From contig JBBECT010000002.1 in NCBI GenBank assembly GCA_040881665.1, positions 1-64,000 on the forward strand: 64,000 nt of DNA, in the 5' to 3' direction. Every line of letters begins with the position of its first letter. The first letter of the stretch is position 1. A model generated the notes under the pieces. That model saw only the letters and a list, made by a program, of their open reading frames with translations. It was not told the DNA's origin and ran no database searches. Below are positions 1 to 57,719 of this stretch, piece by piece. The stretch is from Actinomycetota bacterium (GTDB taxonomy: Bacteria; Actinomycetota; UBA4738; HRBIN12). The position numbers and the translations under genes were made by a program.

Positions 1-1
1 G

Positions 2-67
2 GAAAACGGGAGCATCATGTACGTCGTCCCGGACGAGATCGTGAAGCAGCTGCATCATCAGCTATAG
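2..67 (+). CDS. C-terminal end of a truncated unknown protein
   Basis: The second reading frame is open from the window edge and ends at a TAG, giving 21 residues that finish MYVVPDEIVKQLHHQL. The composition looks protein-like, with a charged amphipathic tail, but the piece is too short to assign a family. The rest of the gene lies outside the window. It may belong with the prepilin gene that follows on the same strand, but nothing proves this. Confidence 0.3.
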   Translation, partial: ENGSIMYVVPDEIVKQLHHQL

Positions 68-91
68 AGAAGCCTCATCGTGCTCGCCTCG

Positions 92-283
92 CTAGATCTC
101 TAGACCTTCGCGGGCAGCCAGGAACGCGATGCCGAGCGCAGCCGTGAGTCCGCCCACGATCGAGGTCGACGTGTCGGCTGTGGAAGAGGCAGGCCCGGCC
201 CTCTCGGGCGTGCTGGACGTACTGAGGAATCTAGCGCCAGCGTGGACGCCACGCTGACTTTGCGTGTTGGTCAAGAAGCTCAA
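92..283 (-). CDS. possible remnant of a surface-protein C-terminal anchor
   Basis: A 63-residue frame whose last third reads like a wall- or membrane-anchor tail: a Ser/Thr/Ala-rich linker, then a hydrophobic stretch (IVGGLTAALGIAFLAA) and a short charged end. There is no LPxTG motif and no convincing ribosome binding site. It could be the surviving end of a longer adhesin gene, or a chance frame. The opposite strand has no better frame here. Treat as doubtful. Confidence 0.22.
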   Translation of the reverse strand: MSFLTNTQSQRGVHAGARFLSTSSTPERAGPASSTADTSTSIVGGLTAALGIAFLAAREGLEI

Positions 284-367
284 CGCTGGCTTCGGAGTGC
301 GGGCAAAGACAGCGTGGGGTCGCTCTAGATCTTCCCGAGTCCCCGCTCAACCTGACCCACCACCCCG

Positions 368-637
368 ATGTCTCGCCTATTGACGTGCAGACCGATCGTC
401 AGCAACACTCCGAGACGGGCGGACGCCTTCTCGTAGCTTAGGTCCGACAACCAAAGCGAAGTTCGTCCACGGGGCGGCCTCTACCAGTTCGAATACGAGA
501 GCCTGTCCGTAGAGAGGTCTCTTGGGGGACTCGCCCCAGGGGTCCATAGGGTCAAGGTGCAAGCCTCCGTGTCCGGACCTGACACGCTCTTCACGCTCGA
601 TGACTGGCATCTCACCGTGGAGCGCCTGCGCATCTGA
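368..637 (+). pseudogene. decayed gene fragment with beta-sandwich-like end
   Basis: From 437 to the TGA at 635-637 one plus-strand frame reads like real protein: alternating hydrophobic residues, segments such as GGLYQFEYESLSVERSLGGL and a tail ending HLTVERLRI, as in a fibronectin-like or Ig-like domain. No start codon precedes it. The same frame is closed by TAG at 434-436, and an ATG at 368 only gives 22 residues before that stop. The simplest reading is a gene broken by frameshift or stop mutations. The minus-strand frame across the same bases (377-682) has no such character. Confidence 0.3.
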
Positions 638-874
638 CGCGGACCGAGGCAGGGCGCCGGGCGACCGTGGTCTGCATGTCACACGAATGGGGACTTTCGC
701 AGGGTGCTGGCGCTCGTCGGCGTCGCCGTTCGACTAGAGATCGACGGGTGAGATCCTCACACGCCCCGCCGGCACCGGCCCGAGAACTGGGACGCCTGCC
801 TAGATATCCATGGTCACGGCAAATCGGGTAGCTGTCTCGAGCAACGGCCTCTAACGCGGAGGGGGTACGTGCCG

Positions 875-892
875 ATACCTAAGATTAGGTAT
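875..892. promoter_or_regulatory. 18-bp inverted repeat at the prepilin start
   Basis: ATACCTAAGATTAGGTAT is a perfect 8-bp inverted repeat around a 2-bp centre, and its right arm overlaps the ATG of the prepilin gene. The position suits a repressor site or an mRNA hairpin controlling initiation. The half-site TACCTAA recurs inside the tandem repeats upstream of the integrase gene (7842-7865), so one protein might bind both places. That link is inference. Confidence 0.5.
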
Positions 893-1406
893 GGGAGATG
901 GACACACCGCCGTCGCCAGTCGGGAGGAGGGTTTCTCCCTCGTGGAACTTGGCGTGGTGCTCTTGGTGATCGGGATCCTGATTGGGATCGGTCTGAGCGC
1001 GTTCCGGGGTGCCGCTCGCGCCGCGGAGCTTGCTGCGGTCCGACAACGGGTGATGAGCGCCTATCGAGCCGAGCAAGCGCTGAAGATCTCCACCGGTGTC
1101 TATCTCGGCACGGCGACCGAACAGAGACGAGCTCTCCTGCGGAAGGAGGAACCCGGCCTGGACTGGGGATCGATGTCGGAGGCGAACGGAGAGGACGTGA
1201 TCGTCCGCGTGGGGCGATACACCGCGGCAGGAAAGCTCCACCGCCAGTCTTGGGTATGCGTGGAATCCGTGGCCTCATCAGGACAGCGGGTTGCCGTCGC
1301 GAATCTCTCGGTGGGTCCAGATGCAGGGACGTACTTCGCTGAAGGGAGCCAACGCCTGTGTCGCTCCCCTCGAACCTTCATTGGGTGGTCGACCCTCTCC
1401 TGGTAG
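891..1406 (+). CDS. type IV prepilin / pseudopilin
   Basis: The 171-residue product starts with a short charged leader followed by the class III prepilin signature EEGFSLVELGVVLLVIGILI. A prepilin peptidase would cut between Gly14 and Phe15 and methylate the Phe, and the glutamate five residues into the mature protein (Glu19) is present. The hydrophobic stretch forms the N-terminal assembly helix, and the remaining 130 residues are a small globular head with a Cys near residue 123 and another near 156 that could form the usual C-terminal disulfide. No peptidase, assembly ATPase or platform gene is in view, so this is an orphan or minor pilin. A GTG eight codons in would also keep the leader. 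Confidence 0.8.
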   Translation: MGDGHTAVASREEGFSLVELGVVLLVIGILIGIGLSAFRGAARAAELAAVRQRVMSAYRAEQALKISTGVYLGTATEQRRALLRKEEPGLDWGSMSEANGEDVIVRVGRYTAAGKLHRQSWVCVESVASSGQRVAVANLSVGPDAGTYFAEGSQRLCRSPRTFIGWSTLSW

Positions 1407-1530
1407 AGCGACGCTAAGGGTGGCCGTTCGTCCCCAATTCGGGCTAGGGCCAGAGACGTCCGGAACAGCGGGTGGCGAACTGGCCCTTCGGTACGTCTTG
1501 GGACGGGAGCCTCGGGGTAGGAAACGCATC

Positions 1531-1839
1531 ATGGCAACGACGGAGTTGGTGCGGGAGTCCGAGAGTCTGTGCATCGAGTTCGGATTGAAGGACTCCATCG
1601 ACATGATGGACCTGGCTCGGATCCGCCACTTCCTCCCCGAGCTCGTCATTCACGTGGAGGACGCCAGGGCCGTGCTGCACTTCCCCGTGCCAGGAGAGGG
1701 ACACCGCGATCGGGTCGAGCGGTTGGTCCAGGTGCATTCGGCGTTGGACATGATCGGGCTGCGCCCTGGTATCGACTACTGGATCGAGGGACTTGGCCTA
1801 ACCGATCAAGCAACGCCGACGGTCACCCTTACGAGCTGA
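1531..1839 (+). CDS. small protein of unknown function
   Basis: An ATG at 1531 gives 102 residues; the frame is open further upstream, but that part overlaps the prepilin gene and is Arg/Gly-rich in the manner of a shadow frame. GGTAGGAAAC lies just upstream as a weak ribosome binding site. The product is acidic, soluble and well composed (segments CIEFGLKDSIDMMDLARIRHF and later PVPGEGHRDRVERLVQVHS), with no signal peptide, TM segment or metal motif. I do not recognise the family. It sits 125 bp behind the prepilin gene on the same strand and may share its transcript. Confidence 0.55.
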   Translation: MATTELVRESESLCIEFGLKDSIDMMDLARIRHFLPELVIHVEDARAVLHFPVPGEGHRDRVERLVQVHSALDMIGLRPGIDYWIEGLGLTDQATPTVTLTS

Positions 1840-2055
1840 GTAGCACTCGGAGGGCCCTGTTCAGAGACACGCTGCTCAGGTTGGTCGGTCAGGGGCCTTT
1901 GGCGACAAGGATTTGATCAGCGACTCGGCGGGGGTTGCAGATCGGACTTTCTCCTGTAAAAATGGAGTCAACAAAGCGCACGGGTACCTGTCGGTGGGCG
2001 GATCAAAACGCTCACAGCCGCCTTGGCGGACTGGAGGCAGGCCCGGCGCTTTGTG

Positions 2056-2817
2056 CTATGTCGGAGCGAAGAACGGGGCGACCCAGGCGTGGCCCGAATC
2101 TTGACGGCAGGGAGGGTCTACGTTCACGGGTGGCTGCACCTTCAACCCATATGTCTTCAGCTTGCCGTACCTGCGCCACAGACACGGGTGAAGGATTTGC
2201 CAATACGTCTGATCGGTTGGACGTCCCTCGCCCGGACCTTCAAACGCCTGCCCTGTTGCTGAAGTGATGATGTCTGCGATCTGAAGGCGCTCATCTACGC
2301 CCGGGGTTGAGAAGCGGATTGGGAGATGTAGTGAATCCCACTTGATACTGGTGGTGCGCTCTTGGAGTAATCGCACATAGTCATGAGCTCGCTTGGGACG
2401 AGATCCCTTGAGGTGCGCGAACGTGATCGACCCGTGCAGTCCTGCACCTTGGAAGTACCAAGACGCTCGTTCGAGTACCAGCTTGATCATCCAGTTGTAT
2501 AGGTGCTCAGAACGCCATGGTCGCTTCTCGGGACCTGCTCGCTTGCAAAGGACAGCGGAGAACGCCTGGATTGGAGCACTTGCCACAGCCGTTGCGAGCG
2601 TCGTTCTGTGCTTCGACACGTAGTTGGAGAAGTGCAGTTCCTGCTTCGACCCAAAGCCACAATCTAGGCGCATCTGGGCCAGGCAATCCGCAAGCGCATG
2701 ATCGTCGCTGGGGAGACTGAAGAACCCGCCTAGGGAGAAATGGTTCTGCTTGGACGAGCTGCGTGTGCCAATGTCTCCTGAGTCATCCACGAACGCAAAC
2801 GCGGTAATGGGTGGCAT
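2056..2817 (-). CDS. DUF3800 domain protein
   Basis: The 253-residue product opens with AFAFVDDSGDIG, the acidic N-terminal motif of DUF3800 proteins, whose fold is thought to be related to RNase H, and contains the late family motif LQIADIITSATGQAF around residues 180-195, where an Asp follows the first Ile-Ala. The Asp pair at residues 10-11, the HFS segment and this second Asp would form a metal site if the RNase H analogy holds. The family is common on plasmids, prophages and islands and its role is not settled. The gene lies 33 bp behind a membrane-protein gene on the same strand, suggesting one operon. A host-defence or maintenance function is inference. Confidence 0.75.
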   Translation of the reverse strand: MPPITAFAFVDDSGDIGTRSSSKQNHFSLGGFFSLPSDDHALADCLAQMRLDCGFGSKQELHFSNYVSKHRTTLATAVASAPIQAFSAVLCKRAGPEKRPWRSEHLYNWMIKLVLERASWYFQGAGLHGSITFAHLKGSRPKRAHDYVRLLQERTTSIKWDSLHLPIRFSTPGVDERLQIADIITSATGQAFEGPGEGRPTDQTYWQILHPCLWRRYGKLKTYGLKVQPPVNVDPPCRQDSGHAWVAPFFAPT

Positions 2818-2850
2818 GCGGCCAAGCCTAGGGTCGGACTGACTAGAAGT

Positions 2851-3654
2851 TCAAGGAAGATGGCGCAGCATCCCTGTGCTGTCCCTGAAACGCTCCATCT
2901 CTGGCCTCCCGCCCAACCTCCGTGCTTCCCGGTCGAGGTCATCATGAAGCCGCTTTAGCTGACCGTAGTCAGGGACCTGTTGAATGTCCTCTCCGAGGAC
3001 TGCTACTCCGTGCTCGATCCACGCCACTAGCGCCCAGTACTGAAAGAAGAAGTCCCAGAACGGCTCCTGCGGTTCAGTCGGCGCTTTCCTTCCAAAGAGC
3101 AGTCGGCGGAGCCGTTCGCGATCTGCTGCGGAAGGAGAATCCCCTAAAAACTCCTCCCAGCCCAAAAGGGCTTGTTCCACATGTGTTTGAGCCATCTCGA
3201 CCTCACGCAAGAGCCACGCGTCGGCCTGCCAGGCAACCACCCGACCAAGGGGCTTGTCGCTATCCCTGAAGCGTTCGTTCACCTTCTCGGCAATCTGCGT
3301 CGCCAGTGAGTAGGGGGGCTCTGCAAATCCTCGGTAGAAGGCACTCAGATCGGCGTGAACAGCAAGGGTTGTCTCGTCAGCTGGCTCCGCTTGCGCGGTC
3401 CGCTTGGTGTAGACGGGGGGCCGCACCCGAAGCCGCTTCGCCCAGGACCAAAGAAGCACGACCAGGGACACAAGAACCAGGACTCCGGACACTGCATAGA
3501 GCCATGCGGCGAGTCGGGGGTTCCGTCCACTGTCAGCCGCCGTGTATGCCCAAGTTGCTGCAGCAACGGTGAATCCCATCAGAACCCCAAACGCTGCCCA
3601 GCGCCGCGCCTCGATCCCCAGGAACCCCGCTCTGCCGTCTGTCTCCTGCGCCAA
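2851..3654 (-). CDS. two-TM membrane protein with cytoplasmic domain
   Basis: 267 residues. Two hydrophobic segments near residues 18-37 (AAFGVLMGFTVAAATWAY) and 47-70 form a hairpin, followed by about 190 soluble residues rich in Glu, Arg, Trp and Leu, predicted helical (for example EKVNERFRDSDKPLG and REVEMAQTHVEQALLGWEEF). I do not recognise the soluble domain. The gene is immediately upstream of the DUF3800 gene and probably co-transcribed. Paired membrane effector and enzymatic partner is a layout common in abortive-infection systems, which is the only hint to function. The N-terminal hairpin could equally be a simple anchor. Confidence 0.65.
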   Translation of the reverse strand: MAQETDGRAGFLGIEARRWAAFGVLMGFTVAAATWAYTAADSGRNPRLAAWLYAVSGVLVLVSLVVLLWSWAKRLRVRPPVYTKRTAQAEPADETTLAVHADLSAFYRGFAEPPYSLATQIAEKVNERFRDSDKPLGRVVAWQADAWLLREVEMAQTHVEQALLGWEEFLGDSPSAADRERLRRLLFGRKAPTEPQEPFWDFFFQYWALVAWIEHGVAVLGEDIQQVPDYGQLKRLHDDLDREARRLGGRPEMERFRDSTGMLRHLP

Positions 3655-3767
3655 GTTGATACTCCCCCCGATCGAGGAAGCCTATTCGCTACTCCGTCTG
3701 GAGGGAGGAAATCAGCACTGCGCATGGGGCAAGTAGTGTCTTTCTGCACGGTGTCCTCCGCTGCTCG

Positions 3768-4139
3768 TCAGTCTCCGCGTGGTGTCGACTCGGTGTCGGG
3801 CGCCCGATCAGGGAGCTCCAGCAGCGTGCCCGCCCGCTCCTGAGCCTTTGTGTGCATCGCCCACTGCTCGGGGAGGTGTTCGAGGATCTCAGCGAGCGCG
3901 TGTTGTACGAGCGTGAGGTCGGCGCCTTCGCTGATATGGACATGGCACAGCGCGTCGGGATCGAGGAACGTGGCGACGGCCTGGACCGCGCAGACGCCGA
4001 GCCATCGGTTGGCGGGTGTCGGGGTCGAGAAGTATCGGATGTTCAAAGCCAGAGTGGGGTCGCCCTGATAGCTCTCGACGAGTTCGTCTCGAGTCGGCAT
4101 TTTGTCGGCCGGCACGTTGAAGGTGAGTTCACTGGTCAT
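3768..4139 (-). CDS. small unknown protein coupled to SWIM protein
   Basis: The frame is open to 4253, but the ATG at 4139 (MTSELTFNVPADKMPTRDEL) is preferred: upstream residues are shadow-like because they run inside the preceding gene, and starting here makes an 11-base overlap with its stop, typical of translational coupling. The 123-residue product is soluble and acidic, with a helical middle part (ADLTLVQHALAEILEHL) and a disordered Pro/Asp-rich end. No family recognised. It lies in the replication end of the integrated element. Confidence 0.55.
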   Translation of the reverse strand: MTSELTFNVPADKMPTRDELVESYQGDPTLALNIRYFSTPTPANRWLGVCAVQAVATFLDPDALCHVHISEGADLTLVQHALAEILEHLPEQWAMHTKAQERAGTLLELPDRAPDTESTPRGD

Positions 4140-4380
4140 CGTTGAGCGCCTCTCTCTCGGTCGGTCTGACGACAACGCGTTGTACCGCGGCCAGGTGACA
4201 GCACCGTCCTCGAGCGGGACAGGCGCACCACCAGTTGCCTTCGGCCCATGCACAGCGCCAAATCACACCTTGATCGGAGCGGACGTCGGCGATGATCTCG
4301 CGCTCGTCGGCGTAGAGGATGTTGACGCGGCCGCCGAGCAGATAGCGATCGGCTTTCTGCGGTACACCCTCACGCGGCAT
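4129..4380 (-). CDS. SWIM-type zinc-finger mini-protein
   Basis: 83 residues. The C-terminal half has WWCACPARGRCCHLAAV, matching the SWIM zinc-finger pattern CxC...CxH, a DNA- or protein-binding fold. The N-terminal half (NILYADEREIIADVRSDQG) looks like the small beta structure that usually precedes a SWIM finger. A GGGGAG ribosome binding site stands eight bases before the ATG. The gene begins inside the iteron array, its first codons containing one GGTACACCCT copy, so it or RepA may regulate this promoter. In mobile elements such mini-proteins are usually unannotated; binding of the nearby origin is speculation. Confidence 0.6.
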   Translation of the reverse strand: MPREGVPQKADRYLLGGRVNILYADEREIIADVRSDQGVIWRCAWAEGNWWCACPARGRCCHLAAVQRVVVRPTEREALNDDQ

Positions 4381-4516
4381 CGAGGTGCTCCCCGCGCCGA
4401 GGGGTGTACGGGTGTACCGGGGTGTCTATAGACACCCACCCCCAGTACACCCTCCCCACATCCTCAGGGGTGTCCCGTATGCCCCAGGTACACCCCAAGT
4501 ACACCCGGTACACCCT
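4361..4516. repeat. iteron array, probable replication origin or RepA operator
   Basis: Five direct copies of GTACACCC occur at 4362, 4445, 4488, 4499 and 4508, four of them as GGTACACCC or AGTACACCC. Two inverted copies GGGTGTAC lie back to back at 4402-4409 and 4410-4417, and partial copies GGGTGTC at 4420 and 4468. An 18-bp palindrome is in the middle. The array occupies the gap between repA and the SWIM gene. Closely spaced repeats beside a replication-initiator gene are the hallmark of iteron origins; the same sites may autoregulate repA. Repeats are seen directly, the origin role is inferred. Confidence 0.65.
4420..4437. repeat. 18-bp perfect palindrome within the iteron array
   Basis: GGGTGTCTATAGACACCC reads identically on both strands. 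Its arms are one-base variants of the neighbouring GGGTGTAC iterons (GGGTGTCT), so it looks like two iterons fused head to head around an AT-rich centre. Such a site suits binding of an initiator dimer or strand opening. Confidence 0.6.
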
Positions 4517-5631
4517 CATGCCCCCCTCCACATGGTCGCGGGCCCTTCCCTGTGGGTCGCCACCCGCTCGTCATCGCGGAGGATGTCCACCGCCTGCGAG
4601 GCGGTGTTCGTCCCGACCTTGAGCTCGGTGCGGATCCGCTCCCTCAATCGCTTCGTCGAGATGCCATCCGCATCGAGGAGGCCCAGCGCCTTCTCTGCCA
4701 CGCTGGATGCCTGCTCAGCTCGCGAGGCCACCTCGGTGACGATCGTCATGGACCCGTCGTCCTGGTCGATGACCGAGCACGAGAGGGGACGTTGCTTCCT
4801 ACCGCCGACGCGGGCCTTCCCGTGCGTGATGGTGAAGGAGCCATCACCTGTCGCTTGGAACTCGAGCAGCGAGTCGAACTTCTGCCCCTTTGCGCTCGCG
4901 CCACGGGGAGCACTCACGCCCCGCCGCCTCACGTTCGGCTGTGGATTGCCGGTGTGATCCAGTACCAGAACCGTGGCTCCAGTTGCCTCGATCAGCGGGA
5001 CTAGGACCTCCCGGTCGAGCGCGGTGATCTGAGCGTTGTCGTTCTCGTCCCCTGACCAGCACGCCGATAGCGTGTCGAAGACCACGAGTGCGCACCCCTC
5101 CACCTGATCAGCGATAGGGCGCACCATGTCCGGGACGAGTGCGACGCCGCCGTTCCCGAACCTCAGATGCTCGAGGTCCGGGCCGAGGCGGCCCAGCCGC
5201 CGTAGGTCCTCGGTTAGCGGGTTCTCCTCACTGAAGTAGGCGACGTCGATCCCCGCTTTTGACAACTCACTCGCCGTCCACAGTGCCCACAGAGATTTGC
5301 CACTCTCGGCCGGGCCAACTCCGATCACCCGCGCTCGCTCGGGAAGGAGCTTGTCCTCGTCGAGGAATTTCGGCTCCGGCACCCCGTTTGCGAGCAGAGC
5401 GCGAACGTCGAGCCACGGATCCCAGGGTGAGAGATCCTTTCCGGCACCGTCGAGGGAGGGAAAGGTCCAGCTCCCGTCCGGCTGCCGCATTCCACCCAGG
5501 ACCTGCTGCATCTCCTTGTCCGTGAGCGGTCTACGTCCTTGCTGTCCGTTAGACTGTGGGGACTGGTGAGGCTCCCTAGTACGCAGGCCCTCGGCGCTCC
5601 CCGCGCCGGGGGCTTCATTCTGGGGAGACAT
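4516..5631 (-). CDS. RepA-like RecA-fold ATPase / helicase
   Basis: Using the ATG at 5631 the product has 371 residues; an ATG at 5670 would add 13 poorly composed residues and overlap the previous gene more. Walker A GPAESGKS lies at 106-113, Walker B ALVVFDTLSA at 181-190, and VLVLDHTG at 222-228 resembles the sensor motif of the AAA_25 / RepA hexameric helicase group. The last 60 residues look like a winged helix for DNA binding. Such proteins load or drive replication of plasmids and integrative elements. The gene overlaps its upstream neighbour by 17 bases and ends within the iteron array. Role as the element's replication protein is well supported by context. Confidence 0.75.
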   Translation of the reverse strand: MSPQNEAPGAGSAEGLRTREPHQSPQSNGQQGRRPLTDKEMQQVLGGMRQPDGSWTFPSLDGAGKDLSPWDPWLDVRALLANGVPEPKFLDEDKLLPERARVIGVGPAESGKSLWALWTASELSKAGIDVAYFSEENPLTEDLRRLGRLGPDLEHLRFGNGGVALVPDMVRPIADQVEGCALVVFDTLSACWSGDENDNAQITALDREVLVPLIEATGATVLVLDHTGNPQPNVRRRGVSAPRGASAKGQKFDSLLEFQATGDGSFTITHGKARVGGRKQRPLSCSVIDQDDGSMTIVTEVASRAEQASSVAEKALGLLDADGISTKRLRERIRTELKVGTNTASQAVDILRDDERVATHREGPATMWRGA

Positions 5632-5950
5632 ACGGCACCGCCGTCCTGCGCCATGTGCTCTGCAATCCACCGTGACGGCGGATCCGACGCGACCTCATGA
5701 AGCCATCGTGCTCAATCAGTCCGAGCGCGTTGAGGCGAGTGAACAGTGCGCCGACGCTACCCGGCGAGCTTGGCTCGTTGTAGGTGCTGTCGTGCACCCC
5801 ATCGGCGTTCACGGCTTCGCCCTCGGGAAGCGAGGCGACCCACCGCACCCGCCCTTCGATCCACTCGCCGTCCGTACGCTCGGCACCCGCGATGCCCTGC
5901 GCTCGAGCGTTGGCCGTCCAGAGTGTGAGCTCCTCGGCGGCACCGTTCAC
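5615..5950 (-). CDS. small winged-helix-like element protein
   Basis: A GTG at 5950 overlaps the stop of the HTH gene by four bases (GTGA), a classic coupling junction, giving 111 residues. A longer frame exists upstream but is only the shadow of the HTH gene. The C-terminal half (VGALFTRLNALGLIEHDGF followed by SRRIRRHGGLQSTWR) resembles the short winged-helix proteins found next to primases and RepA proteins in phages and integrative elements of Gram-positive bacteria. It lies between the excisionase-like and repA genes in a tight operon, so a replication-accessory or regulatory role is likely. No catalytic motif is seen. Confidence 0.65.
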   Translation of the reverse strand: MNGAAEELTLWTANARAQGIAGAERTDGEWIEGRVRWVASLPEGEAVNADGVHDSTYNEPSSPGSVGALFTRLNALGLIEHDGFMRSRRIRRHGGLQSTWRRTAVPYVSPE

Positions 5951-6147
5951 GACGCCACCCCGCGCCGGTTCTCGTCCACCCACGCTCGCAGTTCCACGGG
6001 ATCGAACCGGATCGCGCGACCGAGTCGAACGTGAGGAATTCTGGGCGGAACGGCCTCGACCCAGGCATACAAGGTCGCGGACGAAAGCCCGGTGATCTGA
6101 GCGGCACCCTCGATGGTGAGGAGCGGCTCGAAAGTGGATGCCTCCAC
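5947..6147 (-). CDS. xis: excisionase-like helix-turn-helix protein
   Basis: 66 residues with a single MerR/AlpA-type HTH (HTH_17): LLTIEGAAQITGLSSATLYAW followed by the wing-like segment RLGRAIRFDPVELRAWV. This short protein family acts as recombination directionality factor or as activator of the integrase. It is the first gene of a tightly coupled operon (xis, orf, repA) reading away from the integrase gene, with a divergent 154-residue gene on the other strand. The region between (6148-6267) should hold both promoters; an inverted repeat CGGTG-T-CACCG at 6203-6213 may be an operator. Confidence 0.75.
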   Translation of the reverse strand: MEASTFEPLLTIEGAAQITGLSSATLYAWVEAVPPRIPHVRLGRAIRFDPVELRAWVDENRRGVAS

Positions 6148-6267
6148 GGCAGCCTCCCAGAGCCAACCCGTCCCTGGGTCGACATCAGCTGCCGGGAGTT
6201 CGCGGTGTCACCGGCCACCGATTATTCGGGGTTGCCGTAGAATCTGAACGGTGTAATTCTAGGGGCA

Positions 6268-6732
6268 ATGAGCGGAACAGACAAGACTCTGGCCGAGTGG
6301 GTCGGAGGAGATGAGCAAAGGGTCTTTCAGGCGATCTGCCAGGATTGTGGGCGGAACCTCGGGCGTCACGTTGCTTGGCGCGGAGACGACGGGATCTTGG
6401 GCGTGGACGACTACCTTTCCGCGACCGGCGGCTTCCGCTCCCCCGCCGACTTCCACTTCCCTGGGAGCAGGACACCACGCTCGAATCGAGGCACTCGGCC
6501 CGGAACAAAATCGAGGAACGGACAACTCAAAGGCGGCCAGCGAACCAAAGGCCTTGTCTGGGGGGCACCTTCGTACGTCCTCGACGCACGACTTGAGGGC
6601 TACCTCTATCGGTACTGCCCTTGCAACCTACGGGTCAACCGTGACGTGAAGCGGCGCGGTGACAAGCTGGGTCTCCTCACTGTCGATATCCCAGAAGCCG
6701 AGGACGAACGTCTACCCCGAGTGCTCTTCTAG
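6268..6732 (+). CDS. unknown protein with cysteine pairs
   Basis: 154 residues, divergent from the xis-repA operon. Two cysteine motifs, CQDC at about residue 24 and YCPC at about 118, could bind one zinc ion. The product is soluble and basic in its second half. AGGGG stands just before the ATG and TAGAAT at 6238-6243 is a plausible -10 box. The 3' end overlaps the convergent integrase gene by 21 bases. No family recognised. The position suggests an element regulator or accessory protein, for instance a control protein for int. Confidence 0.5.
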   Translation: MSGTDKTLAEWVGGDEQRVFQAICQDCGRNLGRHVAWRGDDGILGVDDYLSATGGFRSPADFHFPGSRTPRSNRGTRPGTKSRNGQLKGGQRTKGLVWGAPSYVLDARLEGYLYRYCPCNLRVNRDVKRRGDKLGLLTVDIPEAEDERLPRVLF

Positions 6733-7821
6733 AGCGACGACCGCCCCGCCCGATCGGTCGATCTCGTCCAGCGCATCGGCCAGCTCCTCGTCAAGGTGCG
6801 GGAACAACGCACCGTAGGTGTTCAGCGTCGTGGTGATCGACGCATGTCCGAGTCGCGACTGAATCGCCTTCGGGTGCGCGCCGGCCTGGATCGCGACGGA
6901 CGCGCCGAAGTGTCGGAGATCGTGCGGCGTCGGCGACGGTTTCACTTTCGCGGCCTTGACCGCCTTCGCCCAGTACCGCTTGCGGAAGCGATTGCCTGGT
7001 ATCGGCCCGCCCTCGGACGCGGTGAAGACGAGATCGGAGGACGGGAACGCCTCGGCGTGTGCAGCCAGCTCGTCGGCGATGAACTGCGGGATCGAGACGG
7101 TGCGTCGCTGCCCGCTCTTGGTCGGTCCGAACGCGACGTAGCCGCGAACCTCGGTCAGCTGTTCCTCGATGTCGAGCTTGCGCTCGAGCAGACGCACCCG
7201 ACTCCACCGAAGGCCCGCGACCTCGCCATAGCGCAGCGCCGCGTAGGCTTGCGTCAGAACGAGAGCGCGGAACCGCGGATTGATCTTCTCGGCGATCGTC
7301 TCGACCTCGGCGGGTGTCAGCACACGCGGCGCCTTGCGAGAGGTCGGTGGCGCGGGGACGTTGGTCGTCGGGTTCGCCGGGATCAGTCCGTCGTCGACCG
7401 CTTGGCGCAGGACACGGGCGAGCAGCTGACGAGAGAGCTGGATCGTTCGCGCCCCCACTCCCCTCTTGTCCAGATCCGCGATGAACCGGCGAACCTCGCC
7501 CTTGCCGATCTCGGCGAGCGGCATCTGCCCGAACCACGGGAGCACGTACAGACGCGCCTCCGTCTCGTACAGCGCCTTGGTTGACGGCCGCAGGTCGACT
7601 GCCGAGGCGAGCCAATCGGTGAGGTAGGACTCGAGTGGCTCGCGGCCGGCGGACGGGTCACGATAGGTTCCCTGCGACTTCGAGCCCTCGAGTTGCTTGA
7701 GGAACTCGTTAGCGTCGCGCCACCGGGGGAAGGACTTGTAGCGGACCCGCTTGGAGGGGTCTCGCCACCCCGCCTTGTACCGGAGGCCTCTCTTTCCCTC
7801 GACCTTCAGGATCCATCCCAC
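6712..7821 (-). CDS. int: tyrosine recombinase integrase
   Basis: 369 residues with the three parts of phage-type integrases: an N-terminal arm-binding domain (residues 1-55), a core-binding SAM-like domain (about 60-155) and a catalytic domain. The active-site residues are visible: Arg197 in AALRYGE, Lys235, His300 and Arg303 in HDLRH, His326 in RLGHAS and the nucleophile Tyr336 in LNTYGALFP. It would join the element to the chromosome at the 3' end of tRNA-Val, whose gene lies just upstream. Two tandem 12-bp repeats between gene and tRNA could be arm sites. All catalytic residues are intact, so the protein should be active. Confidence 0.92.
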   Translation of the reverse strand: MGWILKVEGKRGLRYKAGWRDPSKRVRYKSFPRWRDANEFLKQLEGSKSQGTYRDPSAGREPLESYLTDWLASAVDLRPSTKALYETEARLYVLPWFGQMPLAEIGKGEVRRFIADLDKRGVGARTIQLSRQLLARVLRQAVDDGLIPANPTTNVPAPPTSRKAPRVLTPAEVETIAEKINPRFRALVLTQAYAALRYGEVAGLRWSRVRLLERKLDIEEQLTEVRGYVAFGPTKSGQRRTVSIPQFIADELAAHAEAFPSSDLVFTASEGGPIPGNRFRKRYWAKAVKAAKVKPSPTPHDLRHFGASVAIQAGAHPKAIQSRLGHASITTTLNTYGALFPHLDEELADALDEIDRSGGAVVALEEHSG

Positions 7822-7865: not shown

Positions 7866-7933
7866 CGGGGGGAAGTTCGGAAGTGCAACGGCCCGAGGGC
7901 CAAGAATCGGCCTCTGACCTGGGGTTGTCCCGG

Positions 7934-8005
7934 TGGGCGTGGTAGGGATCGAACCTACGGCCTCTCGCGTGTGAGGCGAGCGCTCTCCCGCTGAGCTACA
8001 CGCCC
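7934..8005 (-). tRNA. tRNA-Val (anticodon CAC)
   Basis: Read on the minus strand the 7-bp acceptor stem is GGGCGTG / CACGCCC, the D arm contains TAGCTCAGCGGGAGAGC, the anticodon stem-loop is CTCGC-CTCACAC-GCGAG with anticodon CAC, and the T arm contains GGTTCGATCC. The discriminator is A and no CCA is encoded. Its 3' end points to the integrase gene, so it is the probable attachment site of the element on its left. Confidence 0.95.
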
Positions 8006-8209: not shown

Positions 8210-10168
8210 TTACGGAGCCAGCACGAACAGGCCCAAGGACCGCCAGTCGACCGAGTCGACCCCGCTGCCCCCGATCTGCGTCACGGCGCCGCTGGGAGCT
8301 CCGTTGACCCAGTTCACGCGAAAGAGCTTGCCCGTCGTGTTCTGACCGCTGCCGCTCTCGACCGCGACGACGAGCGTTCCGGACGCCATCGTCATGCCCT
8401 TCACCGAGCCCCAGGAGATCCCGCCCCCCGTGGTCGCGGTGAACTCCTCGCCGCCGAGGATGTTCGACTCCAGAGTGAAGTACCGGTAGAAGAGACCGTT
8501 CCGGCCGCTGATCGTGTAGTAGATGCGGTGGTTGTCGTAGAACAGCCCGGTGAGGTTCTGCGGCGCGAACCCACGCCCCTCGAGTCCCAGTGTCGGGATC
8601 TGCGTCGCAGAACCGAGGGTCGATCCGTTGAAGGTCCGGACGTAGAACTTCCCGTCGCTCGCCCCGTGGTACAGCTTGCCCGACAACATCATCGCCCCAC
8701 GCAGGCTCGACAGGCTCGCTCCCGTGCTCTGGGATGTCCCGTAGGTCGTGCCGTTGAACGTGCGCTTCGTGAACGCGCCGTTGGTCTCGACCCGGTACAG
8801 GTCGCCGGGAAGCGAGCCCGGCACGCCGACCGGCGGTGTCGTACCGCCGGCGACCGGGAACATCCCGACGCGAGCATGGAACTCGCCGCCGAGCTTGTCG
8901 GTGTCGCTGCCCACGTAGAGCCCTTGGTCGGTCGACACGAGCGCGAACGCGCCGACACCCCGCGACCGTCCGGGGTTCCAGGAGAACGGCACGCCGTTGT
9001 TCGGATCGATCGCCGCGATCCCGGGACGATCGACAGCGCCCGGTCCCTTCGAGTCGCCGGCGAACGGGTTGTTCATCCAGCGCTGGTGACCGCCGACGTA
9101 GATCGCCGTGCCGGTGATCGCCACGCTGTACAGGGTGTCGCCGCCCGTGTAGTCGACCCAGGTCGGCTGCAGGTTCGAGCCGCGGGCGCCGGTCTCCCAC
9201 CGCGACACCGTGTCACACAGCACCGGCGGCCCTCCGTCGTATGCGCCGGTGGTCGCCACCGCGAAGTAGGACCCGTCCAGGGAGATGTCCACATCACGCA
9301 TGTAGGTGTCGAACGAGCTGGAGCAATCCGAGGCCGGGAACCGGTTCGTCTGCCAGTTCGCGAGCGAGTCGGGCGTGCTCGACAGATCGACCATCGCGAT
9401 CTGCTCGCGAACCTGGCCGCCCGCACGCTTGAAGTTACCGATCGCGATCAGGGTCGACGCGTCGGGCGTCACGTCGATCTTGTTCACACTGGGGCTGCTG
9501 CCCAGGCGCGGCTCGGTGAACGGGATGTTCAGGTCGGCCGAGAGCGCGCCGGTCGTCGCGTCGACCGCCGCGAGTCCGCCACGCAGGACGCTCTTCACCT
9601 TCTTGAAGTCGCCGGCGAGGTACACCGTGGAGCCGCGAACGACGATGTCCTTGACGGCGGCGTTCGGGTTCGGCTTGAAGTTGCCCACCCGGGCTCCGGT
9701 CGCGACATCGAGGCGCGCGATCTTCTTCTGCGCCTGTCCGTCGACGTTCTTGAACGTTCCTCCGACGTACACGCTCGTCCCGTCCGAAGACGCGGCGAGC
9801 GTCTCCACGGTCCCGTCGAGCTGCGGAGCGAACGTCTGACTGACCTTGCCGGTAGCCGCGTCGAACGCGAACAGGTTCGTCCGCGGGAAGCGCGTGCTCG
9901 CTCCTGCGTTGCGGACCTCGTTGAACTTCCCGCCGGCCACGATCGTCGAGCCGACCTGCGCGATCGCTTCGACCTTGCCGTCGAGAACGTGCGGCGTGTC
10001 GTCGGAGGGGTCGTCGGACACGATCACCGCGTGCGGCACGTTCACTGCGCCCGCAGGCGCGAGGGGAACCAACCCCGCGACCAGTGCCACCGCCCAGAAC
10101 GCGACGACCACACTCGCCCGCGCCCGCCCGACGGCTCTGCCCGTCGCGTCGCTCGATCGATCCCGCAC
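8210..10168 (-). CDS. secreted beta-propeller protein, family member A
   Basis: A GTG at 10168 is chosen over the upstream GTG at 10237 because GGAGGT stands five bases before it; this gives 652 residues. A signal peptide follows (hydrophobic run VVVAFWAVALVAGLVPL, then APAGA). The rest is a repeated-blade propeller of the delta-60/DUF5122 kind: IVAGGKFNEVRN, VYVGGTFKNVDG, VYLAGDFKKV, IAIGNFKR, IYVGGHQRW, LYVGSDTDKLGG. It carries the signature shared by all four copies in this window: a Cys before FDTYMRDVD, then LCDTVSRWE and later YTGGDTLYSV. It has no fibronectin modules. Extracellular; binding partner unknown. A GC-rich terminator lies behind it. Confidence 0.8.
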   Translation of the reverse strand: MRDRSSDATGRAVGRARASVVVAFWAVALVAGLVPLAPAGAVNVPHAVIVSDDPSDDTPHVLDGKVEAIAQVGSTIVAGGKFNEVRNAGASTRFPRTNLFAFDAATGKVSQTFAPQLDGTVETLAASSDGTSVYVGGTFKNVDGQAQKKIARLDVATGARVGNFKPNPNAAVKDIVVRGSTVYLAGDFKKVKSVLRGGLAAVDATTGALSADLNIPFTEPRLGSSPSVNKIDVTPDASTLIAIGNFKRAGGQVREQIAMVDLSSTPDSLANWQTNRFPASDCSSSFDTYMRDVDISLDGSYFAVATTGAYDGGPPVLCDTVSRWETGARGSNLQPTWVDYTGGDTLYSVAITGTAIYVGGHQRWMNNPFAGDSKGPGAVDRPGIAAIDPNNGVPFSWNPGRSRGVGAFALVSTDQGLYVGSDTDKLGGEFHARVGMFPVAGGTTPPVGVPGSLPGDLYRVETNGAFTKRTFNGTTYGTSQSTGASLSSLRGAMMLSGKLYHGASDGKFYVRTFNGSTLGSATQIPTLGLEGRGFAPQNLTGLFYDNHRIYYTISGRNGLFYRYFTLESNILGGEEFTATTGGGISWGSVKGMTMASGTLVVAVESGSGQNTTGKLFRVNWVNGAPSGAVTQIGGSGVDSVDWRSLGLFVLAP

Positions 10169-10374
10169 GTCGCACCTCCAAGGCACGTGGTTCTCCACGT
10201 CGTTCGTTCGGTTCGCACCGGGGTGGTGCGGCGGCACTCAGACTAGCCCGCTGGTCCTACGGAGTACCACCCACCGTCGGCACCGACGGGGGAGGCGATG
10301 GGTCGTCCTTCGCCCTAAGGCCGACGACCGGGCAGGGCCGAGGCAGGCAGGGTCCACGGCTATCCTTCGTCGCG

Positions 10375-46633: not shown

Positions 46634-49600
46634 ATGGGGCTCAAGTCACTGCGCGTACTCCTCACCTTCTTCCTGCTGGCCGGCATCGTGCTGGCCCTCC
46701 CGGCGGCGCCCGCCGTTGCCGAACCGGTTCCCCACCCCTCGATCGTCTCGCCAGACCCCGACGACGGCACCCCCCACGTCCTCGACGGCCGGATCAACGA
46801 CATGGCCCAGATCGGCGATCGCGTGGTCGTGGCCGGCAAGTTCACCCAGACGCGCGACAGCGGCAGCCCGACGATCCAATCCCGGACCAACGCGGCGTCG
46901 TTCCTGGCCTCGACGGGCAAGCTCACGAGCTTCGCGCCGGTGCTCGACAGGCAGGTCAACGCGGTCGTCGCCCACCCGGATGGGCAACACGTCTATCTCG
47001 GCGGCGAGTTCAACACGATCGACGGCATCAAGCGCCGCAAGGTCGTGAAGATCGACCTGGCCACCGGCAACGTCGTCACCGCGTTCAAGGCCGCGGCAGA
47101 CGGCAAGGTGATGGACCTCGCGATCGCGAACGACCGCCTCTACATCGCGGGCCAGTTCAAGAAGATCAACAGCATCCCTCGCGAGGGATTCGCCGCCGTG
47201 GACCTCAACACCGGTGCGGTCGACGCGAACGTTGCCGTTCCCTTCACGGTGCCCGCGAACGGCGTTCGCATGGTGCGCAAGATCGAGGTCACGCCGGACG
47301 GCTCGAGGCTCTTCGCGATCGGCAACTTCACGATCGTCGGCGGACTCGACCGGTACCAGATCGCCGCGATCGACCTGACCACCTTTCCCGCCACCGTCGC
47401 GAACTGGCAGACGAACGGATACAAGTTCCAGTGCTACGACGACTTCGACAGTTACGTCCGCGACCTCGACATCGCTCCGGATGGCTCGTGGCTGGTCGTC
47501 ACGACGACCGGTGGCTACGGCGGGGGACCGCCGAGCCTGTGCGACACGATCGCGCGATGGGAGACCGGCTCGGTCGGCACGGACCTGCAGCCGACGTGGG
47601 TGAGCTTCACGGGCGGCGACTCGACCTACAGCGCCGCGATCACGGGTGAGGTCGTCTACGTCGGCGGTCACCAGCGCTGGCAGAACAACATGTACCGGGC
47701 CGACGCCGAGGGACCGTTCGCGGTCCCCCGCGAGGGCCTCGCGGCGTTGTCCTCGCAGAACGGGATCCCGTTCCGATGGAACCCGGGTCGCCAGCGTGGT
47801 GTCGGCGTCTTCTCCTTGGTCTCGACCGCAGCGGGCCTGTGGGTCGGTAGCGACACGGATATGCTTGCCGGTGAGTTCCACGCGCGGATCGGCTTCTTCC
47901 CCCTGCAGGGCGGCGCGATCGTGCCGGCGAATCGTCCCTACCGCCTGCCGAACGACCTCGTCAACATCTCGGCCGTCTCCGGCGGGGGCAACGGTCAGCT
48001 GATCCGCCGTTCCTACGACGGGACGACGATGGGTACCCGCACCACCCTGTCCGTGCCGAGCATGGCCAACGCACGCGGCGCGTTCGCGTTGAACGGCAAG
48101 GTCTACACGGGCTGGAGCGACGGAAGGCTCTATGTCCGTTCCTTCAACGGATCGACCTTCGGGGCAGCGCAACTGGTGCCGATAGCGGGTGTCGACACGA
48201 CGCCCGGAACGAGGTTCAAGATCCCGGGTACGACCACGACGATCCCGAAGTTCAGCGATCACCTGAAGCTCATGACAGGGATGTTCTACGACGCCGGCCG
48301 CCTCTACTACACGATCTCGGGAGATTCCCGCCTGTACGCGCGTCACTTCAATCCCGAGAGCGACATAGTCGGTGCCGAGCTCTTCGTGGCGTCGACCACC
48401 GCCGACGGCGTCGCTTGGAACAACGTCCGCGGCGTCACCCTCGCGAACGGCAACCTGTACTACGCCCTCACGGACGGGAAGCTGTACCGCGTCGCGTGGA
48501 ACGGCTCGAAGCCCACGGGGTCCTCCGTCCAGGTCGGAGGGTCGGGCACCCCGGACAACTACGACTGGACCTCGCGCGGCATCTTCGCCTTCGCACAAGC
48601 CGTCGACACCAACGCCCCCACGGTCCCGGGTACGCCGGGCGGGACCAGCACGCGGATCGGGGAGGTCGACCTGCAGTGGGCGGCCTCGGACGACACCGTC
48701 AGCGACAGCCTGACCTACCGGATCTATCGCGACGGAGACCCGGTCGCGGTCGGCGAGGTCGACAGCTCGTCGAAGTCCACGGTGACATTCACCGACACGA
48801 CTGCCGTTGCCGGCGCGATGCACACCTACACCGTCGACGCGCGAGACGCGACCGACAACGCCTCCGCGAAGAGCCCGGCCTCGGATCCGATCACTGTGGA
48901 GGCACCGGACTCGGTTCCCCCGTCGATCCCCGGGACACCGAGCGGGACGAGCACGCGGATCGGCGAGGTCGACCTGGAGTGGGGAGCGTCCGACGACGAA
49001 ACGAGCGATGACCTGACCTACCGCGTCTACCGGGACGCCGAGCCGACGCCGGTCGGAGAGGTGTCCAGCTCGTCGACGACGACCGTGACGTTCACCGACA
49101 CGACCGCCGTTCCCGGCGCGACGCACACCTATACCGTCGACGCGCGGGACGAGCTCGACAACGCCTCCGCCGAGAGCCCGGCGTCCGCGCCGATCCAGGT
49201 GCTGGCCCCCGATACGACCCCGCCGACCGTTCCGGGCATCCCGAACGCCACCGCGCTGTCGAAGACGAAGATCGACCTGTGGTGGGCGGGGTCGAGCGAC
49301 GATCACAGCGCGCAGATCACCTACCGCGTGTTCCGCGACGGGGATCCCACGCCGGTCGGCGAGATCACCAGTGCCGACGGTCTCGTGAACTTCACCGACA
49401 CGGGGCTCGAGCCCGCGAGCACTCATACCTACACCGTGGATGCGACCGATGAGGCCGACAACACGAGCGCCCCGAGCGATCCGTCCGAGCCGGTCGCCAC
49501 GCTGGGCATCGTGTTCTCCGACGACTTCTCGACCGAGGACTTCTCGAAGTGGACGAACTCTGTGCGGATGTCGATCGACGCGACCGACGGCAGCCCCTCG

Positions 49601-52225: not shown

Positions 52226-52416
52226 TGTCCGACCCTGAACCTACCCTGCCGGGGCAGCCGGCGCCTCTAGCCGCCCGGGGACCGTAGGTCCTGGGGCTTC
52301 CGCCCGATGCCGTATCCCCCGTCCGGGGCTACCATGTGCGCTTCGGGGGAACTCTCCGGGCGTCCGGTCCCGCTCGGGGTCGACCGCACGCATCGAGTCC
52401 TACAGGAGCCGATCTG

Positions 52417-55400
52417 GTGGCGAAGAGCATCCGCAGCACGGTCGTCGCCATCGCGTTCCTGACCCTCGCCCTCCCGGCGGTCCCCGCTGCAGCCCAGCCC
52501 GTCGTGCACCCGGGCCTGACGTCGGAGAACCCGCAGGACGACACCCCGCATGTGGTCGACGGGCGCGTCAACGCGATCGTCCAGACCGGGAACCTAGTCA
52601 TCGCTGCCGGCAACTTCGACCAGGTGCGGAACTCGGGGACCTCGACCTTCCTGACGCGCCGCAACATCTTCGCCTTCGACGCCACGACGGGAGTCGTGGA
52701 CCCCGACTTCAACCCGAACGTGGACGGCGTGATCGAGTCCCTGGTCCTGTCGCCGAACGGGCAGGCCGTCTATCTCGGCGGCGTCTTCAACAACATCAAC
52801 GGCACGCTGCGGCGCAAGGTCGCGAAGCTGAGCGCGAGCACCGGCAACCTGATCACGGCGTTCGAGGCAAACTTCAACGCCGAGGTGCTCGACCTCGAGG
52901 TCGCCAACGACCGTCTCTACGTCGCCGGCGCGTTCACCACGGTGAACGGCTCCACCGGCTCGCTGCGCAGCCACTTCGCCGCCCTCGACCTGAACTCCGG
53001 CGCCGTGGACCCAAACGTGAACCTCCCGTTCACGCAGGCGTTCGAGGGTGACTCCGAGGTGGCGCAGATGGCCCTGTCCCCCGACGGCAGCCGGCTCGTC
53101 GCGATCGGCAACTTCAGGCGCGTGAACGGGAAGGCTCGCGTGCAGCTCGCCGTGCTGAACCTGGCCGAGCCCACGGCCAAGCTCGCGAACTGGAAGACGA
53201 GCTCGTTCGAACCGACGTGCTCGGGCGCGTTCGACTCCTACCCCACCGATGTCGACGTCTCCCCCGACGGAACCTACTTCGCGGTCACGACCACCGGAGC
53301 CTGGCGGCCGAACCTGCTCTGCGACACCGTGTCTCGCTGGGAACTGAACGTCACGGGCACCTCGATCCTGCCGACCTGGATCGACTGGGCGGGCGGAGAC
53401 ACGACCTACAGCGTCTCGCTCAGCGGCCATGCGGTGTACGTCGGCGGGCACTTCCGCTGGTGGAACAACCCCTACACCTCGAACCAAGCGGGCGCCGGGG
53501 CCGTCCCCCGCGAGGGGATCGCCGCTCTCGACCCGGTCAACGGGCTTCCCTTCGACTGGGACCCGGGACGCGATCGGGGTGTGGGCGTGTTCTCGTTCGT
53601 TCCGACCGATGCGGGACTGTGGGTGGGCAGCGACACCGACACGCTCGGGCACGAGAACCACGAGAAGATCGGGTTCCTTCCCCTCGCCGGCGGCGTGACC
53701 GTGCCGCCCAGCGACGTCCCGCAGCTGCCGAACGACCTCTACGTGATGCGCCGGACGAACCAGGGCCAGCTGTTCCGCTACGCCTTCGACGGGACGACGC
53801 TGGGCCCGCGCGTGAAGAAGACGACCGCCGTCAACTGGAACTCGGCCCGCGGGGCCTTCACGGTGAACGACACGCTCTACACGGGGTGGAGCGACGGCAC
53901 ACTGCTGGCTCGCAGCTTCGACGGAACCACGCTCGGTGCCGCGCAGACCGTGGACCTGCACGACCTCGACGTGATCGCGCCGGGAAGCTCGTTCCGTATC
54001 CCCGGCACCACCCTGAACGTCCCGCGCCTCGACGTGCACCTGACCAACGCCACCGGGATGTTCTTCGACCAGGGGCGTCTCTACTACACGGTGCAGAGCG
54101 ACCCACGCCTGTACTACCGGTACTTCACGCCGTCGTCGCGCGTCGTCGGCGCGATGCTGCACGTCGCGGACACCACCGCCGAGAGCGGCATCGACTGGGG
54201 CGGGGTGCGCGGGATGACGATGGCCGGCGATTCCCTCTTCCTGGTCGACGCCTCCGGCGTGTTGTCCGAGGCGGACTTCGGGAACGGAGACCCCAGCGGA
54301 CCCCCGACCTCGATCAGCGGCCCCGGGATCGACGGCGAGACGTGGACGGCGCGCGGGCTCTTCGTCCTCGATCAGCTCGTCGACACCTTCCCGCCCTCGA
54401 CGCCGGGAACGCCCACGGCAGCGAGCGTGCGCGAGGGAGAGGTCGACCTCGCCTGGCAGGCGGCGACCGATTCCGGATCGGACGTGCTGACCTACCGCGT
54501 CTTCCGCAACGGCACCCCGGCCCCGATCGTCGAGTTCGACACCGCGGACCAGGGCCAGGTCACCCACACCGACGTGGGCCTGACGCCGGGGGCCCAGCAC
54601 ACCTACACCGTCGAGGTCGAGGACGCGGCCGGGAACACCGCCACGAGCGCGGTCTCGAACCAGGTCACCGTGCTCGGCCCCGACACCCTCGATCCGACCG
54701 GGCTCGGAACGCCCACCGGGGTCGCGAACGGCAAGACGAAGATCGACCTCCAATGGCAGGCGGCGACCGACGACCGCAGCACGACGCTCACCTACCGGGT
54801 CCTTCGGGACGGCGATCCCACGCCGGTCGGCGAGTTCGATTCCGCGGCAACGGGAACGATCCCCTTCACCGATACGGGACTGGATCCGGGATCGACCCAC
54901 ACCTACGTGATCGAGGTCGAGGACGAGGCCGGGAACACGGCCACGAGCGCCGCGTCCGCTCCGATCACGACCGGCGGCGTGCTGTTCGCCGACGACTTCT
55001 CGTCGGGAAACCTCGCCGCGTGGGACGACATCGACCAGATGACGATCGATAACTCCCAGGGGGGCCTCGCTCCGCCGAGCGCCCGCTACGAGACGGCCGG
55101 CAACAACGCGTCGCTGCGTGTGAACCTCCCGGCGCCGGTCGATGAGATCTGCATGAGCGCCCGGATCCGCGTCTTCGACCGCGGCACCAGCGGCCTCGAC
55201 CTGCTCCGCGTTCGGACCGCCGGCGATGGGAAGGTCACGAAGACCTATGTGAACAGCTCGAACGTCCTCGTCCTGCGTTCCGAGCTGGCCGCCACCCAGA
55301 AGCTGTCGGGGACAACGCTTCCGACCGGATGGAACGAGCTGGAGATGTGCGGCGAGGTCGGGACCACGAGCACCTGGGACCTGTACCTGAACGGCACCAA

Positions 55401-55527: not shown

Positions 55528-55666
55528 TTCCTCCGGGTCGTTCCGGAGGAGAAACCGTCCGGGAGGCTTCACGGTCCCCCGATCGGGGTACAGAATCGAC
55601 GCGGGCGAACATGTGTCGGAGCGGCGACGACGGACCGTCGCCGGTGCCAACTCCAATGGGGGAAAA

Positions 55667-57619: not shown

Positions 57620-57719
57620 CCGGCACGTCGGCCGGCCCCTCCGACACTCCCCGCCACCGTGTTCGAGGCTCCTTCATGCTCTATCGTCGTGCGCACCGAC
57701 GCGGGGAGGGATCAACCGG

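Follow-up and report, generated by a model that had tools for sequence, protein, structure and literature searches.

Where does a small integrative element of an actinobacterium start its replication, and which protein recognises the starting point? The question is raised by a cluster of short repeats in the first 64,000 nucleotides of contig JBBECT010000002.1 (assembly GCA_040881665.1, an Actinomycetota bacterium), the whole stretch analysed here and referred to below as the window; window base 1 is base 1 of the contig. The cluster lies between repA, which encodes a RepA-type RecA-fold helicase, and the gene of a small SWIM-like protein, on an element associated with a tRNA-Val gene. We consider it likely that this array serves the element as its replication origin (oriV), and that the adjoining helicase is the initiator and binds the repeats (iterons) via its C-terminal domain. 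This analysis established the array with its statistical strength, the family to which the helicase belongs, and the conservation of position and layout in relatives with other iterons.

Five exact copies of the iteron GTACACCC were found on the plus strand (4362-4369, 4445-4452, 4488-4495, 4499-4506 and 4508-4515) and two exact inverted copies on the minus strand (4402-4409 and 4410-4417), all seven within 4362-4515, an array of about 155 bp. A perfect 18-bp palindrome, GGGTGTCTATAGACACCC, stands at its centre (4420-4437), with arms that look like an inverted iteron pair (GGGTGT...ACACCC) flanking a TATA core, and palindromes with a similar AT core occur in relatives. An earlier note on this DNA had described five direct and two inverted copies and an 18-bp palindrome in 155 bp between repA and the SWIM gene, which proved exact to the base. 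In addition, a degenerate inverted iteron, GGGGTGTCCC, is located at 4467-4476 on the minus strand, and degenerate inverted copies are similarly placed in two relatives (G002 and G046). The 64 kb contain eight exact matches to GTACACCC against 0.71 expected, a count that none of 100 shuffles attained, and seven of the eight sit at 4362-4515. When the commonest 8-mer per 200 bp was counted on both strands in 3190 sliding windows, the top value of 7 was confined to the array and the runner-up place had 4, so that nowhere else in the 64 kb does one 8-mer exceed four copies per 200 bp; the highest 8-mer count in 1000 dinucleotide shuffles of the array region was 3. The palindrome by itself is mildly unusual (18 of 5000 region shuffles give one of 18 bp), and a second palindrome of this length is present at 61291. 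The array is positioned downstream of repA, outside the repA promoter: its rightmost iteron (4508-4515) abuts the repA stop codon (4516-4518), and its leftmost, outlying iteron (4362-4369) falls inside the first codons of the minus-strand SWIM-like open reading frame (ORF; 4129-4380). An Rfam scan gave the tRNA as the sole match. We also observed a 20-bp repeat, GGTGCTCCCCGCGCCGAGGG (90% identity), at 4384-4403, before the SWIM-like start, and at 5593-5612, near the helicase start, which is perhaps a common leader element.

The helicase encoded next to the array (4516-5670, minus strand, likely ATG start at 5631) was assigned by Pfam, profile search and Foldseek. It matches AAA_25 (PF13481) with E=1.6e-11, and a profile built from 17 relatives retrieved RSF1010 RepA (1g8y, E=1.6e-13) far ahead of RadA. 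The predicted structure fits RSF1010 RepA best (Foldseek, template modelling score normalised to the target 0.62 for 1nlf and 0.63 for 1olo, among the top 50 matches listed). The Walker A motif GPAESGKS and residues E149, D199, H239 and R256 are conserved, and the catalytic residues are kept across 17 sequences. By sequence and predicted fold, the window RepA thus belongs to the RSF1010 RepA-type helicase family. Three helices follow the RecA core (residues 317-335, 339-350 and 354-366) and are placed where relatives carry a short helix-turn-helix (HTH)-like domain; the region of about residues 317-366 is a putative DNA-binding domain. The helicase core and these helices were taken from a prediction based on a 17-row alignment, whereas a two-sequence AlphaFold model (predicted local distance difference test, pLDDT, 41) was discarded. 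A pattern scan of viral contigs yielded no close RepA relatives, and tblastn of the window RepA against phages and plasmids gave no match.

The nearest RepA relative, G009 (VAYX01000013.1, 40% identity), comes from an actinobacterial metagenome-assembled genome placed in the same family by the kinship list. The gap between its helicase stop and SWIM-like gene contains C[C/T]AGACCC iterons and the palindrome CCCACCCCCTCTATAAGAGGGGTGGG; the iteron differs from that of the window, the AT-core palindrome is similar, and place and order are the same. An outlying iteron just before the G009 SWIM-like gene matches the window arrangement as well. Counted from the centre of the palindrome, with orientation set by the helicase gene, the iterons lie at -83> -74> -63> -20> | +15< +23< +63> in the window, at -72> -62> -51> -25> | +17< +52> in G009, at -65> -55> -23> -10> | +18< +53> +70< in G002, and at -66> -56> -46> -20> | +54> in G046. 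Iteron order and approximate distances therefore agree among the four despite a different iteron in each; random layouts match the pairwise agreement in 0.3-7% of trials, a comparison made, like the choice of palindrome, after the sequences had been seen. The earlier note had staked its reading on conservation of the repeats near related repA genes: the architecture is kept in G009 and others, and the iteron sequence is not.

The G009 element is complete (11.1 kb) and bounded by 39-bp identical direct repeats, one of them within a tRNA-Arg gene, with the integrase just inside. Direct repeats at tRNA genes were also found for the G002 and G061 elements (66 bp with 94% identity and 48 bp with 100%), and the helicase/array module is therefore recurrent in tRNA-integrated elements. 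Two observations on G009 and a further genome stand apart from this comparison. In G009, a 160-bp stretch with the SWIM-like gene start occurs twice (locus L034, 9087-9246 and 12851-13013, 93% identical); the second copy is broken and 3.8 kb off, and an IS481-type transposase is encoded at L034:5856-6800. In G025, a frameshift-split helicase homologue (L023:5617-6139) is separated from a tRNA-Arg gene by about 400 bp; this locus is a decayed relative of the window element and, being split and without an array, was given no weight on either side.

Which protein reads the iterons was approached through 31 freshwater viral contigs in which the palindrome core is near-constant and the iterons, classifiable in 30, are of a GGGACA or a CAGACA class. 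Between the two classes, identity is 81% in the helicase core and 41% over the C-terminal 75 columns, compared with 73% for the C-terminal columns within the main class, values computed without removing sequence relatedness. In this one viral group, iteron class and helicase C-terminal domain go together, as expected if this domain reads the iteron, which supports such a role without proving it. Similarly, the Rep proteins of staphylococcal pathogenicity islands (SaPIs) and Cch2 of the staphylococcal cassette chromosome SCCmec recognise iterons directly downstream of their own genes via a C-terminal domain (PMC7581432). Alternatively, a small protein with its gene at 5615-5950 (minus strand) would read the iterons of the same origin and recruit the helicase, as RepC recruits RepA in RSF1010. 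Its gene precedes and overlaps the start of repA, its equivalent forms the N-terminus of the G009 helicase in a 503-aa fusion (L034:7449-8960; weak match from window 5633-5941), and RSF1010 does have a separate iteron binder (PMC4234260). The protein is winged-helix-like by eye only and matches no Pfam or other recognised family; moreover, many array-bearing relatives have only a helicase with a C-terminal domain, and it is this domain that the iteron class tracked in the viral group. We thus regard the small protein as a rather doubtful, though not negligible, candidate for the binder.

To survey the phylum, we searched 61 genomes with PF13481 and looked at ten of the best-scoring AAA_25 genes other than DnaB and RadA. 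An iteron cluster with an AT-core palindrome was present at the helicase 3' end in five of the ten loci (G046, G002, G004, G061 and L044) versus none of about 18 DnaB/RadA loci (Fisher p=0.003). Among viral contigs reached via related helicases, represented by 18 contigs at 70% identity with sufficient sequence, the helicase 3' end was the most repeat-dense place of the 6-9 kb locus in 10 (1.6 expected, p=9e-7). The repeats of Streptomyces phage mu1/6 and its relatives are inside the helicase coding sequence, in a linker. In these mu1/6-type phages (L106, L107, L108, L110 and L111), the iterons code for a Pro/Gly-rich linker between an HTH-like domain and a C-terminal CxxC...C zinc ribbon, and the origin and the protein linker would therefore share the same DNA. 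As a separate observation, two freshwater viral contigs (L074 and L098) carry, about 150-210 bp past the helicase stop and behind the array, a sequence resembling a tRNA or transfer-messenger RNA 3' end, GGGTTCGACTCCCAGCAGCTCCACCA, which is possibly the phage attachment site (attP) of these contigs.

These comparisons bear on two readings in which the array is not an origin. It could be an operator at which a repressor, such as the HTH_17 protein, the small winged-helix-like protein or the SWIM-like protein, controls the SWIM-like operon: the array spans the SWIM-like leader, one iteron overlaps the first codons, and G009 retains the outlying copy at the SWIM-like start. So many copies across 155 bp, arranged with dyad symmetry, go beyond usual operators, however, and across elements the helicase gene is the constant partner while the downstream gene varies; arrays also occur within helicase coding sequence. 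An operator without origin function is accordingly improbable, and autoregulation by the initiator on top of origin function is likely. The other reading, a parS-like partition site bound by ParB with the replication origin elsewhere, we judge very improbable: no ParA or ParB was found among the families on the window element, an integrated element has no need of partition, the class of repeat goes with the C-terminal domain of the helicase in one viral group, and the repeats of mu1/6-type phages lie inside the helicase coding sequence.

The gene neighbourhood is that of a mobile element. From the tRNA-Val gene (anticodon cac, 7932-8005, minus strand; ARAGORN and Rfam), the presumed attachment (att) site, the minus-strand order is a tyrosine integrase adjoining the tRNA (6712-7821, Pfam Phage_integrase E=9e-21), an HTH_17/AlpA-like excisionase or regulator (5947-6147, Pfam HTH_17 E=4e-11, PHROG 66 excisionase E=2.2e-8), the small protein, the helicase, the array, and the SWIM-like protein (CxC...CxH), which has no Pfam match and a shortened counterpart in G009 (L018:913-1107). 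There follow a small ORF without a family match (3768-4139), a membrane protein (2851-3654) and a DUF3800 protein (2056-2817), the last two being probable cargo whose membership in the element is suggested by gene direction only. The earlier description as a tRNA-integrated element finds indirect support: the integrase, the HTH_17 gene, the adjoining tRNA-Val and the intact tRNA att repeats in three relatives with the same module agree with it, and the second att site was not found on the contig. No such site was detected in the window or the genome, with no more than 11 matching exact bases within window positions 1-6700, and the first base of the window is also the first of the contig.

One candidate for the missing end, a 33-bp match of 85% identity in another contig of the same genome (G000:C6:99563), was rejected, being the 3' piece of a different tRNA whose T-stem differs with compensating bases. 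This fragment (C6:99563-99595, equal to L006:1501-1533; L128) stands without a tRNA gene near the end of contig C6 and precedes genes for phage tape-measure-like and capsid-like proteins, which together are probably what remains of a tRNA-integrated prophage in this genome. Elsewhere in the window, the contig start has nearby the gene of a pilin-like protein (891-1406) whose match to an N-methylation motif is weak, and four large paralogues of about 50% identity share one 50-kb stretch (8210-10237, 46637-48595, 52390-54369 and 55661-57622); the last has an internal TGA, and the first lies directly beside the tRNA-Val of the element.

The lack of a left att site on the contig, together with the small size of the element and its few recognisable genes, raises the possibility of an immobile relic with an array that no longer functions. 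We find this unlikely, as the integrase, the excisionase-like gene and the helicase are open, the Walker and catalytic residues are conserved, and all seven iterons are exact copies.

Comparison with known systems helps to place the element. Like the Rep-ori pairs of SaPIs and Cch2 of SCCmec (PMC7581432), it combines an integrative element with an initiator helicase and iterons directly downstream of the helicase gene, and the reading of iterons by a C-terminal DNA-binding domain would be a further likeness, such a domain being putative in the window RepA. The helicase families differ, that of the window being the RSF1010-RepA-type RecA fold; the window array has an AT-core palindrome in its middle, and no phage-satellite packaging genes (Pfam/PHROG scans) or SCC genes were recognised. 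By analogy, the window system would work like these initiator-helicase/origin pairs without being one of them. With RSF1010 oriV it shares the helicase family (1g8y, 1nlf, 1olo), iterons and short inverted origin repeats (PMC4234260). In contrast to RSF1010, no RepB' primase or RepC initiator families were found among the main ORFs of the element, the helicase carries its own C-terminal HTH-like domain, and the element is integrated; it stands outside the IncQ replicon type. Likewise, Pfam and PHROG scans revealed no Rep_3, Rep_1 or RepA_C initiators. The gp21 region of phage mu1/6 (DQ372923) also has an AAA_25 helicase, many short repeats, ACCTGCCC, and a palindrome, CCCTCTCTAAAGAGAGGG, at the helicase 3' end, whereas mu1/6 is a complete temperate phage with a DnaB-N domain, and its array lies in the linker coding sequence before the C-terminal zinc ribbon; the record has no origin annotation for the gp21 repeat region. 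The actinomycete integrative and conjugative elements (AICEs; pSAM2, pMEA300, SLP1) are similarly integrase-bearing actinobacterial elements that replicate on excision; according to published work they do so by RepSA (rolling circle), RepAM or Prim-Pol/RepPP and carry an FtsK-like Tra (PMC3218068). Because Pfam found no RepSA, RepAM, Prim-Pol Rep or FtsK-like Tra in the window element, it is not an AICE. Finally, pRN1-type plasmids (PMC4234260) have their origin directly downstream of the replication gene, a helicase with a C-terminal winged helix and a structure-forming element, and differ in using a Prim-pol with an SF3 helicase and a large stem-loop in place of iterons.

We propose that initiation could proceed as follows. 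The C-terminal HTH-like domain of RepA would bind the GTACACCC iterons, and RepA hexamers may assemble on either side of the palindrome; with the iterons oppositely oriented across it, two RepA rings may come to lie face to face, an arrangement already proposed for SaPI Rep. Opening would begin at the TCTATAGA core of the palindrome, RepA would load onto the single strands, and host primase and polymerase would then copy the excised circle. Binding, melting, self-loading, copying after excision and host priming are what we infer here, the last because scans of the element detected no primase domain. Strand-displacement replication is the mode served by RSF1010 RepA, the closest helicase of solved structure; the theta mode suggested in the earlier note is therefore an assumption rather than a given.

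Several points weigh against the array being an oriV read by RepA. In the viral contig L101, the GGGACA iteron is found together with a divergent C-terminal domain, and the C-terminal domain of the window RepA is itself only modestly predicted (pLDDT about 65-82), its DNA binding being putative. Besides the retrospective nature of the layout comparison, G002, G046 and G061 are, unlike G009, distant members of the AAA_25 superfamily. The other five of the ten sampled AAA_25 loci have no array, and the association is not universal. On the element itself, the left att site is missing, and neither a primase nor a separate loader was found among the genes detected. On balance, the earlier proposal of an iteron-type origin beside a RecA-fold RepA is supported by the array, the helicase family and the same arrangement near related helicases.

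The arrangement had also been called less usual, a view in need of correction, since the combination of helicase, iterons and palindrome recurs across elements and phages of Actinomycetota. Whether it amounts to a widespread origin class that has gone undescribed is, in our estimate, evenly balanced. In such a class, an RSF1010-RepA-type helicase with a C-terminal DNA-reading domain would be its own initiator and loader, acting on a fixed grammar in or behind its own gene (tandem iterons, an AT-core palindrome of inverted iteron halves, and oppositely oriented iterons), with the iteron letters swapped together with the reading domain. No description of an AAA_25 helicase with iterons was found in the open papers searched; subscription papers, including the mu1/6 literature, were outside that search. 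If the class is real, an AAA_25 helicase gene with 3' iterons and an AT-core palindrome would be a signature for locating origins in many actinobacterial elements and phages with unannotated replication, and small cassettes of origin and helicase could serve as shuttle-vector replicons for hosts without any. A DnaB/RecA-fold helicase normally needs an initiator and a loader. The system described here suggests that such a helicase can be its own initiator, an idea that a single purified protein and a 160-bp DNA would suffice to test.
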